64,000 nucleotides of DNA. It comes from Haliovirga abyssi. GTDB taxonomy: Bacteria > Fusobacteriota > Fusobacteriia > Fusobacteriales > Haliovirgaceae. Below, one piece after another: positions 11,399 through 62,390 of this stretch. The notes below the pieces were generated by a model. That model was not told the origin of the DNA and did no database searches. It saw nothing but the letters and a program-made list of their open reading frames with translations. The translations under genes were made by a program, and so were the position numbers. The stretch covers positions 620,001 to 684,000 of the forward strand of contig NZ_AP027059.1 in assembly GCF_030295325.1 (NCBI RefSeq), given 5' to 3'. Within the stretch, counting starts at the first letter, position 1, and every line of letters begins with the position of its first letter.

Positions 11399-11446
11399 TT
11401 AGGAATGGTTTAAAAATAACAAAATTATTTTTAAAATATTTTTTAG
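11399..11446. repeat. Degenerate family A hairpin repeat before clpP
   Basis: It begins AGGAATGGTTTAAAAATAAC and continues AAAATTATTTTTAAA, resembling the left and right arms of the longer family A elements at 47465, 55041 and 58765, but with a decayed right end. It stops just before the clpP ribosome binding site. Confidence 0.45.
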
Positions 11447-15637: not shown

Positions 15638-15682
15638 ATTTTTTTATAATAAAATATGAAAAACTTATTTTTAAAACGTTCC
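15638..15682. repeat. Right half of a family A repeat, before engB
   Basis: The bases resemble the right arm of the 58765-58865 element: a TTTTTATAA segment, then a GAAAAACTTATTTTTAAAACGTTCC ending that is split here across 15658-15682. No left arm is visible, so this is a truncated copy. It lies 28 bases before the engB start. Confidence 0.55.
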
Positions 15683-42634: not shown

Positions 42635-42642
42635 ACTTACTA

Positions 42643-42780
42643 GGAAAGTATAAATTTGTCTAGAAAATAAGCTACGCTATTTTTTTGAAATATGCGATTT
42701 TTCAAAGCGAAATTTTTCAGAAGCCAAAAATTTTGAAAAACATTTATGTTCTACCAGATGAAGCGTAGCTTATTTTTTTA
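42643..42780. repeat. Family B long hairpin repeat, copy 1
   Basis: The arms AATAAGCTACGCT (42666-42678) and AGCGTAGCTTATT (42762-42774) are exact reverse complements, separated by an AT-rich loop of 83 bases. The left end GGAAAGTATAAATTT, the inner ATTTTTCAGAA and the right-side ATTTATGTTCTAC segment recur in the same order at 62271-62390. No gene is present. The T-run after the right arm could also act as a terminator. It ends just before the Rpn-type gene. Confidence 0.7.
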
Positions 42781-47430: not shown

Positions 47431-47464
47431 AATTTTTATCATAACAACATATTTTTAAATTATT

Positions 47465-47613
47465 AAGGAACGGCTTAAAAACAACCTTTTTATTTTGTTT
47501 TAAAATACGCAACGGTTCAAGCGTTTTTATAACAAAATATATAAAATTATTTTTAAACATTCTTCAAGCGTTTTTATAACAAAAAATGAGAAACTTATTT
47601 TTTAAACGTTCTT
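47465..47613. repeat. Family A hairpin repeat, expanded copy before the CBS-HATPase gene
   Basis: The outer ends AAGGAACGG and AACGTTCTT are inverted. Inside is one left unit (TTTTGTTTTAAAATACGC) followed by two right units (GCGTTTTTATAACAAAA, at about 47521-47537 and 47568-47585). It matches a nested copy like 55041-55242 that has lost one left unit. It splits the DRTGG gene from its partners without interrupting a gene. Confidence 0.7.
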
Positions 47614-47658
47614 AAATGGGGGATGTTAGTTTTAAGCCATTCACAACTGGAGGTTAAA

Positions 47659-53876: not shown

Positions 53877-55007
53877 GTGAGTAAAGTAGCTTTGATGAAA
53901 TGTGATGATTATAAATTTGATAATTTATATAAAGTTATAAAAGAAGGATTAGAATTAACAGGAGGAATCAAATTTGTTAAAGATAAAAAAGTTTTATTAA
54001 AACCTAATTTACTTTCACCTGAAAAGCCAGAAAAAGCAGTTACCACTCATCCAGAAGTTGTAAGAGCTGTGATAAGAATATTACATGAAGCTGGAGCGAA
54101 AGTTTATGTTGGAGATAGTCCAGGAACAGGAACTCAGGAGATAATTTATAATGTAACTGGTATGAAAAAAGTTATTGAAGAAGAAGGCGCAGAATTTGCT
54201 GATTTTAAAAATAAAGTTGAAGTATTAGTAGATGGAAAAGTAGTGAAAAAATTTATATTTGCTAAAGCAGTAAAAGATGTAGATTATATATTTTCATTGC
54301 CCAAATTAAAAACTCATGCAATGACATATTATACAGGTGTTATAAAAAATTTATTTGGGACAGTACCAGGCATATTAAAACCTAAATTTCATTATACTTT
54401 TTCAGAAAAAGATAAATTTTCTGAAATGTTAATAGATTTAAATATTGCATTAAAACCAATTTATGGTATAATGGATGCAGTAGTTGGAATGGAAGGGAAT
54501 GGTCCTAGAAATGGAGACCCTAAAAAAATAGGAGCTATTTTAATATCAAAAGATTTTATAGCCTTGGATGCGACAGCTTGTAGATTGGTAAATATATCGC
54601 CGTATGATGTAATGCCAATAGTAAAAGGATTTGAAAGAGGATTAGGAGAAATAGATAAAGATAAAATAGAGATATTAGGAGAAAAAATAGAAAAATTAGA
54701 AGTAAAAGATTTTAAAAAAGTAAAAAAAGAGCTTAAAGTTGGAATGCTTATACCTGTTCCAAATTTTATAAACAAATTTATAAAAAATATATTGGTGCCA
54801 AAGCCATATTTTGATGAGAAAAAATGTATTTTATGTGGTGAATGTGTAAAAGTATGTCCACCAACTCCAAAAGCTTTAAAAATAGAAGATGGAAAAGTAA
54901 AAATCAATAGAGAAAGATGTATAAGATGTTTTTGTTGTCAAGAGATGTGTCCTGTAAATGCAATAGAGCCTAGAAGAATAACAGGGAATAAAAATACATT
55001 TAAATAA
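53877..55007 (+). CDS. DUF362 domain protein with C-terminal bis-[4Fe-4S] ferredoxin domain
   Basis: A 376-residue protein. The DUF362 domain (about 1-285) has VLLKPNLLSPEKPEKAVTTH, YVGDSPGTGT and PKLKTHAMTYYTGVIKNLFG. The ferredoxin part (about 310-370) has two clusters, CILCGECVKVCPP and CIRCFCCQEMCP. The start is GTG 53877 behind GGGAGG; the upstream ATG at 53847 lacks a site. Family members are frequent in anaerobes and presumed to be redox proteins; the electron partner is unknown. Confidence 0.88.
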   Translation: MSKVALMKCDDYKFDNLYKVIKEGLELTGGIKFVKDKKVLLKPNLLSPEKPEKAVTTHPEVVRAVIRILHEAGAKVYVGDSPGTGTQEIIYNVTGMKKVIEEEGAEFADFKNKVEVLVDGKVVKKFIFAKAVKDVDYIFSLPKLKTHAMTYYTGVIKNLFGTVPGILKPKFHYTFSEKDKFSEMLIDLNIALKPIYGIMDAVVGMEGNGPRNGDPKKIGAILISKDFIALDATACRLVNISPYDVMPIVKGFERGLGEIDKDKIEILGEKIEKLEVKDFKKVKKELKVGMLIPVPNFINKFIKNILVPKPYFDEKKCILCGECVKVCPPTPKALKIEDGKVKINRERCIRCFCCQEMCPVNAIEPRRITGNKNTFK

Positions 55008-55040
55008 TTTTTTAAAGGTTTATTATGATAAAAAAATATT

Positions 55041-55242
55041 AAGGAATGGCTTAAAAATAACCTTCCGATTTTGTTTTAAAACACGCAATGGTTTAGGAAC
55101 GCTTTAAAAACAACCTTATCCTTTTGTTTTAAAATACGCAACGATTCAAGCGTTTTTATAACAAAATATATAAAATTATTTTTAAACATTCTTTAAGCGT
55201 TTTTATAACAAAAAATGAGAAACTTATTTTTTAAACGTTCTT
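55041..55242. repeat. Family A hairpin repeat with a second copy nested in its loop
   Basis: Order of units is left-left-right-right. The outer left arm is AAGGAATGGCTTAAAAATAA and the outer right arm ends TTTTTTAAACGTTC. An inner element of 100 bases (55095-55194), starting AGGAACGC and ending ACATTCTTT, sits exactly where the simple copy at 58765 has its loop. Short TA/TTTA-like bases border the inner copy. It fills most of the 254-base gap before the methyltransferase gene. No gene seen in the gap. Confidence 0.75.
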
Positions 55243-55261
55243 AAAAGAGATGAGGTATAAA

Positions 55262-55987
55262 ATGCATTCTGAATTTGCGTATATTTATGATGAGGTTATG
55301 GAAATAGCGAACTATAACGAATGGTATGATTTTTTAAAATTAATGTTAAAAGACATAAATTTTAATGGAACAGATATAATGGATTTGGGTTGTGGAACAG
55401 GAGAGATATTGATAAGGTTATATAAAGATGGGTATAAAGTATTAGGGGTTGATATATCTTCAGATATGTTATCAGTGGCACAAGATAAAATGGTAGAAGA
55501 TGGCATTAGTATACCTTTAGTAAATATGGATATGAGAGAACTAAGATTACCTGTTGAAGTAGATTTGGTAGTCTCATTTTTTGATACAATAAATTATCTA
55601 ACTTCAGAAAATGAGTTGGAAACAACTTTGGAAAATATATATAAACATTTGCCTAAAAATGGATTTTTTATATTTGATATTGTAACAAGAAAATTAATAG
55701 ATGATATGTTTGAAAATAATATATTTTTGGATGAAAGAGAAGAAATAACAATTATTTGGAGACATTTTTATAATGAAGAGGAAGGATTAGATGATTTTCA
55801 TACAGTTTATTTTGTGGAATTTGAAAAAAATTATTATAAAAAAATAGAAGAATTTCATCAAAAAAAGATTTTTGAAATAGGAGTTGTGGAAAAAATAGCA
55901 GAAAAAGTTGGATTTAAAATTGCCAAAAAATATGAAAATATAGAATTAGCTGGGGAAAGAATATTTTTTGTACTAGAGAAAGTTTAG
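55262..55987 (+). CDS. SAM-dependent class I methyltransferase
   Basis: A 241-residue Rossmann-fold methyltransferase. Motif I MDLGCGTGEILIRLY near residue 42, acidic loop LGVDISSDML, and motif for the middle strand LVVSFFDTINYL. The substrate is unknown; length and sequence style resemble small-molecule methyltransferases (UbiE/ycgJ-like). ATG 55262 lies behind GATGAGG; a nearer-upstream ATG at 55250 is part of that site. A family A repeat ends 20 bases upstream. It is followed by the MFS gene after 17 bases. Confidence 0.85.
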   Translation: MHSEFAYIYDEVMEIANYNEWYDFLKLMLKDINFNGTDIMDLGCGTGEILIRLYKDGYKVLGVDISSDMLSVAQDKMVEDGISIPLVNMDMRELRLPVEVDLVVSFFDTINYLTSENELETTLENIYKHLPKNGFFIFDIVTRKLIDDMFENNIFLDEREEITIIWRHFYNEEEGLDDFHTVYFVEFEKNYYKKIEEFHQKKIFEIGVVEKIAEKVGFKIAKKYENIELAGERIFFVLEKV

Positions 55988-56004
55988 GAAAACGGGAGGA
56001 AAAT

Positions 56005-57165
56005 TTGAAAAAGATTGCTAGAATTAGTTACATAAATTTTTTATTAATTGGATTAACTTTTAATTTATTAGGAGTAAGTTTAATTTATATTGCAAAACAT
56101 TTTAGTGTTGATACAGCAATAATAGGGTATCAATTTGGATTTTTTACTATTGGAAGTACTAGTGGAATATTTTTTACTAATTTTTTATTAAAAAAAATGG
56201 ATATGAAAAAAATCTATATATTTGATTATGTTTTGTTAATTATAGGTATTTTAATTATAGGAAATACATTAAGTTTAGATGTTTTTAGAATTGGATTAAT
56301 TATATATGGATTAGGTCTTGGAGGGCTTGTATCTAGTTCTAATTTTTTAATAATAGCTGGATTTAAAGAAAATAGAGCATCTATTTTAACAATGGCTAAT
56401 TTTTTTTATAGCTTTGGAGCAATATTATCTCCATTAATAGCTGGATACATTTTAAAAATAAATATTAATTGGGTATGGATATATAGAGGAACAATTTTAT
56501 TGATTATTATATTATTTTATTTAGTGATAAAATCTGATTTTAAATTTTTAAAAGATAGTAATGAAGATAAGAGTGAAAATGAAGAAAAAGAAAAATGGGG
56601 AATAACAATTTATTTAGTAGCTTTTGCAATATTTTGCTATGTTTTAGCAGAAATGGTTTTTTCATATTGGATAGTAACATATTTAAAAATGGATACAGGA
56701 TTTAAAATAGAGATAGCAAGTTTTGGATTATCTTTATTTTGGATATTTATGGCAATTGGAAGATTTTTTTCAAGTTATATAGTAAAGAAAATGAAAATAG
56801 AAAGTTATATTATTTTGTCAGCTGGAATAGGATTTTTAGGATATATACTAATATCACAATTTAATTCTATAATTTTAATTTATGTTTTAATTGCTATTAC
56901 AGGATTAGGATTTTCTGGAGTATACGCAGCTGTTTTAGATTTTGGAACAAAACAATTAAGAAATACTTCTGCAAATTTAATGACATTTATAATAGTATCA
57001 GGTTCCTTTGGTGGAATTATGTCATCTCCTATTTCAAGTTTTCTTAAAGAAAGAGTTTCTATAAAATATTCATTTTTTTCAGGTGCAATTGCAATTTTAT
57101 TAGTACTTGTATTAATAGTAATTGCAGAAATTTTACAAAAAAGAAGGGGAAGAAATGAGAGATGA
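56005..57165 (+). CDS. Major facilitator superfamily transporter
   Basis: A 386-residue membrane protein with 12 predicted helices in two halves of six, linked by a charged loop (DSNEDKSENEEKEK) near residues 185-200. The pattern resembles FucP-like or sugar/hexuronate MFS carriers. Start codon is TTG 56005 behind GGGAGG. The substrate is not predictable. The end overlaps the phosphatase-superfamily gene by 11 bases, which suggests a functional link. Confidence 0.85.
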   Translation: MKKIARISYINFLLIGLTFNLLGVSLIYIAKHFSVDTAIIGYQFGFFTIGSTSGIFFTNFLLKKMDMKKIYIFDYVLLIIGILIIGNTLSLDVFRIGLIIYGLGLGGLVSSSNFLIIAGFKENRASILTMANFFYSFGAILSPLIAGYILKININWVWIYRGTILLIIILFYLVIKSDFKFLKDSNEDKSENEEKEKWGITIYLVAFAIFCYVLAEMVFSYWIVTYLKMDTGFKIEIASFGLSLFWIFMAIGRFFSSYIVKKMKIESYIILSAGIGFLGYILISQFNSIILIYVLIAITGLGFSGVYAAVLDFGTKQLRNTSANLMTFIIVSGSFGGIMSSPISSFLKERVSIKYSFFSGAIAILLVLVLIVIAEILQKRRGRNER

Positions 57166-58756
57166 TTTTAATGCAAATATTGCAGGATATAGACGAAAAG
57201 GAAAAAAAATATTTATTCAAATAGATGCATTACCATATGAAATGTTATTAAGAGCTATAGATAGAGGATATACCCCTTTTTTGAAAAAATTAATAAATAA
57301 AAAAGGGTATACAGTGAATAAAATATTTTCAGAATTGCCAAGTAATACTCCAGCAGCTGAAATGAAAATAATGTATGGTATAAAAAATTGGATAAAAGGT
57401 TTTAGATGGTATAATAAAAAAGAGAAGAGACATTACAATTTTAAAAATCCTTTGACAGCAAATTATTTTGAAGAAAAAGCTGAAAAATTCACAGAAAAAC
57501 CTATTTTAAAAAATGGGGCTAGTTACATTACATTTTATTCTGCAGGAGCGAAAAGGACAATACTTACATTTAGCAGAGGTTTAAAAATAGATGTAAACAA
57601 ATCAATTACAAATAATAAAATTTGGCAATTTATACTTATAAATACAGATTTTTTAATAAAAGTAACAATTGATGTAGTTGAAGAACTATTAAAAGAAGGA
57701 TTAAAATTTATAAAATATATTTTAATAAAAAAAAGAAAGATAAGAGGTTTATTATTTCCTTATGTTAGAATAGTTAATAATGTATTATTTAGACATATTG
57801 CTACAATGGGCTCTATTTTAGAAATGAATGAAGGTGTAGAAAGAATATATTTAGTGTATAATGGATATGATGAAGTGGCTCATCAACTTGGAGCAGATGC
57901 AACAGAATCTTTAAAAACATTAAAGAAAATAGACAAATCTATAATGAATATTTATAAAACAGCTACAAAAAAAGGATATGAACTGTATATTTTTTCAGAC
58001 CATGGTCAAACTAATAGTATACCTTTTGAAGAATATTATGGAATATTATTAACAAATTATATAAAGCAAGAAATTTCCAAAGATATAGGAATTTCTGAAT
58101 ATAGTTCTGATAATGAAAATAGAAAAGAATTACATTTATATTTTTTAGATAAAATTTTTAAAACTGTTTCAGAGCTAAATCATAAAATTATAAATAAAAT
58201 CATAAAAAAGTTTTTAAAAAAAACGAATGAAAACATAAAAAATGAAAATGAAATTATAGAAAATGATATTATAGTTACAAATTCAGGGCCTCTATCTCAC
58301 ATATATTTTTTAGAAGAAGAGAATAGGATGTTAAAAGATGAAATTATAGAATATTTTCCTGAAATAATAGACAAGATTTTTTTACATAATGGGATTGAAT
58401 TTGGAGTAGTTAAAACTAAATATGGATTTGAGATAAAAGGTAGAAAAGGAAAAATAGAGTTAAACAATGAGTTTGAAATTGTAAATGAAACAGGGAATCT
58501 GTTTAAAAATATATTAAGAAATATAAAAAAAGAGACTATAATATCTAGTTTAAAGGAAATTAGTTGTGGTGAAAATGTAGGAGATTTAATAATTTTTGGA
58601 GCTTTATTAAAAAATAATTTAATTATAAATTTTGAAAATCAATATGGCGGACACGGTGGAATTGGTGGAATGCAAAATTTTCCTTTTTTAATAGCTAATA
58701 AGGAGTTAGAAAAAGATAAAAAATCGATTTCAAATTTATATGAAATTTTCAAATAA
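57155..58756 (+). CDS. Alkaline phosphatase superfamily phosphodiesterase/phosphatase
   Basis: A 533-residue predicted metallohydrolase. Metal-binding and nucleophile motifs: IQIDALPYEM (Asp) near residue 25, SNTPAAEM (Thr nucleophile) near 60, DEVAHQLG near 238, SDHGQTN near 286, and the late GGHGGIGG near 502. This layout fits nucleotide pyrophosphatase/phosphodiesterase-like members. No signal peptide is seen, so it is probably cytoplasmic or membrane-associated. ATG 57155 follows GGGGAAG inside the MFS gene. The substrate is unknown. Confidence 0.8.
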   Translation: MRDDFNANIAGYRRKGKKIFIQIDALPYEMLLRAIDRGYTPFLKKLINKKGYTVNKIFSELPSNTPAAEMKIMYGIKNWIKGFRWYNKKEKRHYNFKNPLTANYFEEKAEKFTEKPILKNGASYITFYSAGAKRTILTFSRGLKIDVNKSITNNKIWQFILINTDFLIKVTIDVVEELLKEGLKFIKYILIKKRKIRGLLFPYVRIVNNVLFRHIATMGSILEMNEGVERIYLVYNGYDEVAHQLGADATESLKTLKKIDKSIMNIYKTATKKGYELYIFSDHGQTNSIPFEEYYGILLTNYIKQEISKDIGISEYSSDNENRKELHLYFLDKIFKTVSELNHKIINKIIKKFLKKTNENIKNENEIIENDIIVTNSGPLSHIYFLEEENRMLKDEIIEYFPEIIDKIFLHNGIEFGVVKTKYGFEIKGRKGKIELNNEFEIVNETGNLFKNILRNIKKETIISSLKEISCGENVGDLIIFGALLKNNLIINFENQYGGHGGIGGMQNFPFLIANKELEKDKKSISNLYEIFK

Positions 58757-58764
58757 AAACTATA

Positions 58765-58865
58765 AAGGAACGGCTTAAAAATAACCTTCCGATTTTGTTA
58801 TAAAATACGCAATGGTTTAAGCGTTTTTATAACAAAAAATGAGAAACTTATTTTTTAAACGTTCC
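58765..58865. repeat. Family A hairpin repeat, simple 101-base form
   Basis: The clearest copy. The outer arms AAGGAACGGCTTAAAAATAA and TTATTTTTTAAACGTTCC bracket an inner stem TTTTGTTATAAAATACGC (58793-58810) and GCGTTTTTATAACAAAA (58821-58837). The inner loop is AATGGTTTAA. The entire element can fold as one hairpin. It separates the phosphatase gene from the next gene, and its right end touches that gene's ribosome binding site. Confidence 0.8.
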
Positions 58866-58880
58866 AAAGGGAGAATTTAA

Positions 58881-59720
58881 ATGAGAAGGTTAATATTATC
58901 GGTACTGTTTTTTGACAAATTTTTAAAATTTTGGGGACCTGGGATACATTTACATCTTGGGAATAAACTTTTAAATTCAGATAAAGATTTTGAGGGAAAA
59001 GATATAATAAAAAATTACAAAAAAGAGTTTTTATATGGGAATATTGCACCAGATATTACGTTAGGAAAAAAATATATAAAAGATTTGGAAAAACATTCAC
59101 ATAGTTGGAATGTGGGGTTTGAAATACTAAATAAAGCTAACAGTGATAAAAATAAAGCTCTTGCCTATGGATATTTATCTCATTTAGCATCAGATATTAT
59201 TGCACATAATTTTTTTATTCCAAAAAATTTACTAGTTTCAAAAGGAATGAGAAGCTTTTCTCATATGATACTTGAGATAAAATCAGATATGATGTTATAT
59301 AAGGATACTTATGAACTTGTTTATAAAATGTCAAAAGTTAATTTAAAAGATGAAGACCTATTTTTGAAATCTGTTATTTCAGAATCTTTTTTACCATTTA
59401 AAGCAAATAGAAAAATATTTGAATATTCATTAAAAGCAATGAAAAGTAAATATATGTATTCAGGTATAAGAATTTTTACCAATTATGAAAATTGGATTCA
59501 AGAAAATAAAAAAATACTGGAAAAATACCATAAAATATCTTATAATCTAATAGAGAATATTTTAGAAAAAAAAGAAAGGTCTATTTTGTTGAAATATGAC
59601 CCAAATGGCGAAAAAAATATAGGAATATTAAATGAATTAAAAAAAGAGTATAAATTATTTAAAATGAAAGATTATGAAACTAATATTTTTAACATACCTG
59701 AAGAATTAAGGGGGATTTAA
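58881..59720 (+). CDS. Zinc-dependent phospholipase C-like protein
   Basis: A 279-residue helical protein. Histidine and aspartate ligands typical of the zinc-dependent phospholipase C family are visible: WGPGIHLHLG near 19-28, GNIAPDI near 53, KHSHSW near 71, and YLSHLASDIIAHNFF near 95-109. The N-terminus is hydrophobic but not a clear signal peptide. The substrate is unproven. Neighbours are a phosphatase-superfamily enzyme and a transporter upstream, and a membrane sensor-like protein one base downstream. AAAGGGAG precedes its ATG. Confidence 0.82.
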   Translation: MRRLILSVLFFDKFLKFWGPGIHLHLGNKLLNSDKDFEGKDIIKNYKKEFLYGNIAPDITLGKKYIKDLEKHSHSWNVGFEILNKANSDKNKALAYGYLSHLASDIIAHNFFIPKNLLVSKGMRSFSHMILEIKSDMMLYKDTYELVYKMSKVNLKDEDLFLKSVISESFLPFKANRKIFEYSLKAMKSKYMYSGIRIFTNYENWIQENKKILEKYHKISYNLIENILEKKERSILLKYDPNGEKNIGILNELKKEYKLFKMKDYETNIFNIPEELRGI

Positions 59721-62135: not shown

Positions 62136-62190
62136 AAGGAACGTTTAAAAAATAAGTTTCTTATATTTTGTTATTTTTAAGACGTTCCTA
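62136..62190. repeat. Family A hairpin repeat, minimal outer-arm form
   Basis: AAGGAACGTTTAAAAAATAA and TTATTTTTAAGACGTTCCT are inverted around GTTTCTTATATTTTG. Only the outer arms of the 101-base form remain. It lies in the atpI-atpB gap. Confidence 0.7.
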
Positions 62191-62270
62191 AGTATAAAAA
62201 AGAATTTAGATAGATCGCTTTCAAAGGGTTAGTCATAATTGGCAAGTTATTTTTAAGCCATTTTTTAATA

Positions 62271-62390
62271 GAAAAGTATAAATTTATTCAGAAAAGAAGT
62301 TACACTATTTTTTAAGTATGGAATTTTTCAGAAACAAAAGATTTAGAAAAATATTTATACTCTACGAAATGCAGCGTAACTTCTTTTTAA
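62271..62390. repeat. Family B long hairpin repeat, copy 2, before atpB
   Basis: AGAAGTTACACT (62295-62306) pairs with AGCGTAACTTCT (62373-62384) with one mismatch. The AAAGTATAAATTT start, ATTTTTCAGAA centre and ATTTATACTCTAC right part match the copy at 42643-42780. It ends 38 bases before the atpB start and may affect its expression. The remaining parts of the gap (62072-62135 and 62191-62270) show nothing further. Confidence 0.7.

Follow-up and report, generated by a model that had tools for sequence, protein, structure and literature searches.

A MITE-like hairpin repeat of Haliovirga abyssi nested at a single loop base within copies of its own family

Introduction

The closest described systems to the repeat studied here are bacterial MITEs such as Chunjie of Geobacter and the QMITEs of Coxiella, which are short and AT-rich, have inverted-repeat ends, carry a target duplication, and lie mostly between genes in many copies that include size variants and truncated forms (PMC10969869). 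The Haliovirga abyssi family shares all of these traits. It differs in that about two dozen of its copies contain another family member, always at one position of the loop, and in that no parent IS was found for it in the families tried. The MITE review makes no mention of nesting (PMC10969869), and in the literature we searched, which is incompletely covered, we found no bacterial case in which a MITE lineage is restricted to its own family's loop.

Insertion into palindromes has several precedents. IS1397, IS621 and ISKpn1 also insert at a defined point inside a repeated palindrome (PMC1525189); however, they are autonomous IS elements entering an unrelated palindrome, whereas in H. abyssi insert and target belong to the same family and the insert is probably not self-moving. 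Nested small elements are known in archaea, where SMR insertions into PATEs of Haloquadratum walsbyi likewise place small mobile repeats inside others within one prokaryotic genome, but these belong to different families, and PATEs have neither terminal inverted repeats nor target duplications (PMC3119063). The palindromic clusters of yeast mitochondria (GC42) and the double-hairpin elements of Allomyces mitochondria are similar in being small hairpins that merge, shuffle and are exchanged by recombination, although they reside in organelle DNA and are GC-rich and shorter with different ends; we found no account there of elements nested at one constant base of the loop and flanked by a 3-bp duplication (PMC4478555). 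REP/BIME palindromes, mobilised by RAYT tyrosine transposases, are 20–40 bp long and lack a target duplication, and we rejected them as a model because our units are ~100 bp and make a 3-bp duplication.

Here we describe the family and its nested copies. The explanation we favour, which we consider about equally likely to be right or wrong, is that a single original loop insertion was followed by homology-directed copying between copies.

Results

The analysed window is a 64,000-nucleotide stretch of the H. abyssi genome (2.73 Mb in two contigs, C1 and C2), the sole listed representative of its taxonomic family. Genome-wide, copies were located by pattern and BLAST searches, which miss very worn copies, and the surrounding stretches were taken. 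A right-arm pattern matched 140 times and a left-end pattern 214 times, each against 0 for the reversed control, and the genome holds well over a hundred copies of the hairpin element. Forty genomes of the same order gave short, chance-like matches and no real copies, and we found none in viral contigs (searched with one exact pattern), plasmids or phages.

The simple unit of ~100 bp has the ends GGAAYGGCTT...AACGTTCC, with terminal inverted repeats GGAAYG.../...CGTTCC evident both from folding and from reverse-strand self matches. The window copy at 58767–58865 forms a near-complete hairpin with ends GGAACG...CGTTCC. Its DNA fold has a z-score of −5.5, the RNA fold of the nested copy one of −3.8, and in neither case was any shuffle as good. 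An exact 3-bp duplication flanks 82 of 103 scorable copies (shuffled mean 28.4, maximum 46 in 5000 shuffles), and the signal is lost when the register is shifted. Ordinary copies use TTA (37 of the 82) and TAA (26) alike; a Y mostly precedes and an R mostly follows these duplications, which gives the target consensus Y-TWA-R. Placement is intergenic in 108 of 117 copies with enough flank, and minimal copies of 41–51 bp with duplications also exist. Being short, without a transposase gene and dispersed in many copies, the family is a non-autonomous MITE-like hairpin transposon, for which no parent IS emerged among the families tried. Rfam matched two tRNAs and nothing else across the whole window, and gave no match up to E 1 in the 54980–58900 segment.

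IS5-group (IS1031/ISL2) and PIF/Harbinger elements make 3-bp TNA/TWA duplications, which the TWA duplication seen here resembles. We do not claim membership of either group because matching transposase domains are absent: the genome contains neither PF01609 (DDE_Tnp_1) nor PF13359 (DDE_Tnp_4) transposases. The preliminary description had proposed looking for an autonomous partner with matching ends, but no transposase with GGAACGGCTT ends was found among those tried (PF01609, PF13359 and one rve IS), and ~40 regions around further left-end matches held no longer element with such ends. The rve IS itself was rejected as a partner, its TGTACCC ends being unrelated.

At the nested locus, arm profiles give the order L-L'-R'-R on the plus strand, in agreement with the left-left-right-right arrangement first proposed. 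The outer copy spans 55043–55241, so the 55041–55242 reported earlier was off by 1–2 bases, and lies between TAA duplications at 55040–55042 and 55242–55244. Its left arm (55043–55095) ends in the first TTA of the loop (55093–55095); the inner copy L'-R' follows at 55096–55192, and then a second TTA (55193–55195) and the remainder of the outer right arm (55196–55241). The empty loop, ATGGTTTAAGCG, has a single TTA. The insertion borders are thus real, and the complete inner element described at 55095–55194 is indeed a nested copy, although it measures 97 bp rather than 100.

The other window copies noted in the preliminary description are real too, with small corrections to their limits. The simple form placed at 58765–58865 is the 99-bp plus-strand copy introduced above, with an AAA duplication (58764–58766/58866–58868). 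The copy at 47465–47613, read as a nested copy that had lost an arm, is an L-R'-R deletion derivative at 47467–47612 on the plus strand with a TAA duplication (47464–47466/47613–47615): its left arm follows the outer arm for ~10 bases and then an inner one. The minimal form at 62136–62190 consists of the ends only, 51 bp on the minus strand (62138–62188), with an exact TAA duplication in the plus-strand reading (62135–62137/62189–62191). Of the plus-strand fragments noted at 11399 and 15638, the former is a short worn copy at 11402–11442, starting TTA|GGAATGG and with an approximate right end, and the latter a lone right arm (15641–15682). The gaps between collinear ORFs at 47431–47622, 55008–55249 and 58757–58880 are nearly filled by the three large copies, which stop ~8–15 bp upstream of the next start codon and, being so close, may affect expression of the downstream gene.

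Arm profiles run over 377 kb of stretches around located copies counted 104 L-R, 18 L-L-R-R, 6 L-L-R and 2 L-R-R arrangements, besides some fragments and tandems. One L-L-R-R copy runs on into a further L-R, and there are a few true tandem L-R-L-R arrays. The nested set thus comprises 18 intact copies and at least 8 derivatives, about two dozen genome-wide. Such a survey had been suggested at the outset, and it gave a uniform picture: in all intact nested copies the inner element sits at the same loop base in the same orientation, and nearly all have an exact TTA on both sides of it.

That base is a regular target. The loop TTTAAG is an instance of Y-TWA-R, and within the element YTWAR occurs only in the loop and at both ends. 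Insertion at an end would break the element; the loop, as the sole site outside the ends, is therefore where an insertion leaves both ends whole. YTWAR is also common. The 64-kb window by itself has 1285 such sites, and under ordinary transposition the inner module would not be confined to loops. Confined it nevertheless is, and it has almost never entered the very many other target sites.

The inner copies are themselves distinctive. Sixteen of 18 form one lineage with three sublineages, I1–I3; the inner copy at 55096–55192 joins a left arm of I2 type to a right arm of I1 type. Their L' ends read GGAAY(G/A)(A/C)TTT in place of GGAAYGGCTT, a signature that occurs 22 times (≤1 mismatch), 21 of them in loops; the one outside a loop is a hybrid copy at C1:2167458. 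The canonical right end AACGTTC is found in none of 18 inner copies, 64 of 84 simple copies and 14 of 18 outer ones, and its lack is in keeping with an inner copy that has ceased to be under selection to move. The preliminary description had pictured a mobile unit that targets its own hairpin loop. Insertion into the loop stands, but self-targeting is not supported as stated: the loop matches the general target, and because the inner copies belong to one lineage, have drifted ends and include one non-loop hybrid, they do not behave like a self-targeting unit that jumps on its own. A further two nested copies, C1:2173786 and C1:1569677, are more diverged and carry other inners; they were excluded from the tree tests and may be separate nesting events.

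Inner and outer copies have had different histories. Most outers lie 0–4% from ordinary simple copies of different subfamilies, and the inners lie 7–17% from any simple copy. In a tree of 116 rows and 98 columns, a single inner clade was not rejected (p-AU 0.49) but a single outer clade was (p-AU 0.0003). On the tree of outer and simple copies, nestedness needs 14 changes, close to what shuffled labels need (mean 15, 131 of 500 as low), although well-supported branches alone force only 3. Some outers that differ from each other at 8 sites contain identical inners, and the correlation between inner and outer distances is only weak (Mantel r 0.16, p 0.05). Because the inner is one lineage and its hosts are scattered, the insert was passed from loop to loop; it has gone into several loops that already existed, on at least three and possibly more than ten occasions. 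In nested copies whose inners are near-identical, the first differences between the outers lie 3 bp left and 14 bp right of the junction.

Several copies are mosaics. In the derivative at 47467–47612 the switch after ~10 bases is to an I1 arm; this copy is a recombination deletion product with a chimeric left arm. At C1:200250 the switch falls within the last bases of the arm, and the simple-looking copy at C1:2020817 combines an outer left arm with an inner middle. Moreover, an unrelated 47-bp module (GGCTCAAGGTTCTTTTATGAAAACCACATAAAAAACTACGCCCAACG) makes a 146-bp variant of the element. Its internal position is the same in all ten copies that carry it, although the left arms preceding it belong to several subfamilies (C1:9118, 244699, 408252, 414560, 475962, 506320, 1701715, 1961303, 2019195 and 2038696). 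Chimeric arms and the shuffled module together show that segments are exchanged between copies, and recombination is therefore the more parsimonious way to account for the movement of the inner module as well.

Discussion

We propose the following course of events. One family copy would have inserted once into the TTTAAG loop of another, and the resulting composite, with its two outer ends unharmed, could persist. The inserted copy would then have lost its own end sequences and stopped moving alone. Later its module would have been copied into the loops of pre-existing copies of several subfamilies, by homology-directed recombination between arms of ~50 bp, with base and orientation the same each time; breakage or stalling at the hairpin tip, followed by templated repair, is a possible trigger. 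Recombination between the direct repeats L/L' and R'/R also removes arms and yields the L-R-R, L-L-R and chimeric L-R forms. The loop-to-loop spread is thus probably due to DNA recombination rather than repeated jumping.

Several considerations temper this proposal. The trees are built on 98 columns, dispersed loci are expected to recombine only rarely through arms of ~50 bp, and the limits of the transferred segment (3 bp left, 14 bp right) look cleaner than ordinary gene conversion; they would fit a clean insertion or templated filling of a broken loop, and long-tract conversion less well. A hairpin-tip nuclease is only suggested, by one SbcD-like match just below the family cut-off. In E. 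coli, the palindrome at which SbcCD acts is 246 bp long (PMC3315005), but the hairpins here are shorter.

The main rival is repeated loop-specific transposition, in which the inner copies make up a separate mobile subfamily, with a transposase that recognises the outer hairpin loop or cruciform much as IS1397 recognises REP palindromes. The exact TTA flanks and very clean boundaries suit this reading, and the distinct inner ends, which we take as drift, could instead reflect a different transposase specificity. Palindrome-targeting IS elements are known (PMC1525189), and an IS of this same genome repeatedly sits in another palindromic repeat family. Yet only a single orientation is seen, the one copy outside a loop is a hybrid, no transposase with such ends turned up in the families tried, and the 47-bp module, which is not a transposon, has been shuffled in a similar way. 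We therefore regard loop-specific transposition as possible but rather doubtful.

It is unlikely that the composite arose once and spread as a unit by transposition via its outer ends, inner and outer diverging together. The outer ends of composites are intact, with outer duplications in 12 of 13 scorable L-L-R-R copies, and there is one inner lineage, as unit spread would have it; but the nested outers come from several ordinary subfamilies, the single clade is rejected, inner and outer distances correlate weakly, and identical inners sit in different outers. These results contradict unit spread as the sole explanation, while within a subfamily it may hold.

Tandem arm expansion by replication slippage with no insertion event, named in the preliminary description as what would overturn nesting, we reject as highly improbable: direct-repeat recombination between arms clearly occurs and a few L-R-L-R arrays exist, but the L-L'-R'-R order with a complete inner element and flanking TTA duplications does not come from duplicating one arm, nor do the inner arms duplicate the outer arms of the same copy.

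Returning to homology-directed copying, it is tempting to speculate, though only tentatively, that the inner module rides in hairpin loops as a 'homing' passenger: degenerate and non-transposing, copied into empty sister loops when the tip breaks or stalls, and so spreading like a homing intron without an endonuclease of its own. As the nested insert and its hosts have different histories, repeat-to-repeat traffic in a bacterial genome becomes directly readable. Should recombination be what spreads the module, then homology remodels small repeats even through arms of ~50 bp, which would affect the dating of MITE/REP families and the reading of composite forms.

Other repeats of this genome show related arrangements. 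The IS mentioned above is a 1.48-kb element with an rve transposase and ends TGTACCC...GGGTACA (e.g., C1:1187069 and C2:104083). In most of six copies examined it lies inside the other palindromic family (AAATAAGCTACGCT...ATGAAGCGTAGC), four of the six sharing the point CTT|CATC, and 3-bp duplications are apparent; on this basis it appears to target a repeat. That palindromic family is also present in the window (42637–42777 and 62265–62388), and a fragment of it (AAAAAATAGCGTAGCTTATTTTCTGAACAAATTTATACTTTCC) occupies the loop region of a copy of our element at C1:2335448–2335580. At C1:346788–347103 a related repeat that shares the GGAACGGCTTAAAAA end but has another interior (TTAGTTGCTCTTCACGA...) forms an array, its copies separated by CTA or TTA and one copy of our element lying between them. 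Finally, in both rRNA operons examined (C1:256600–257100 and C1:533400–533900) the spacer contains a worn copy of the element in the same position, just upstream of the apparent 5S rRNA.
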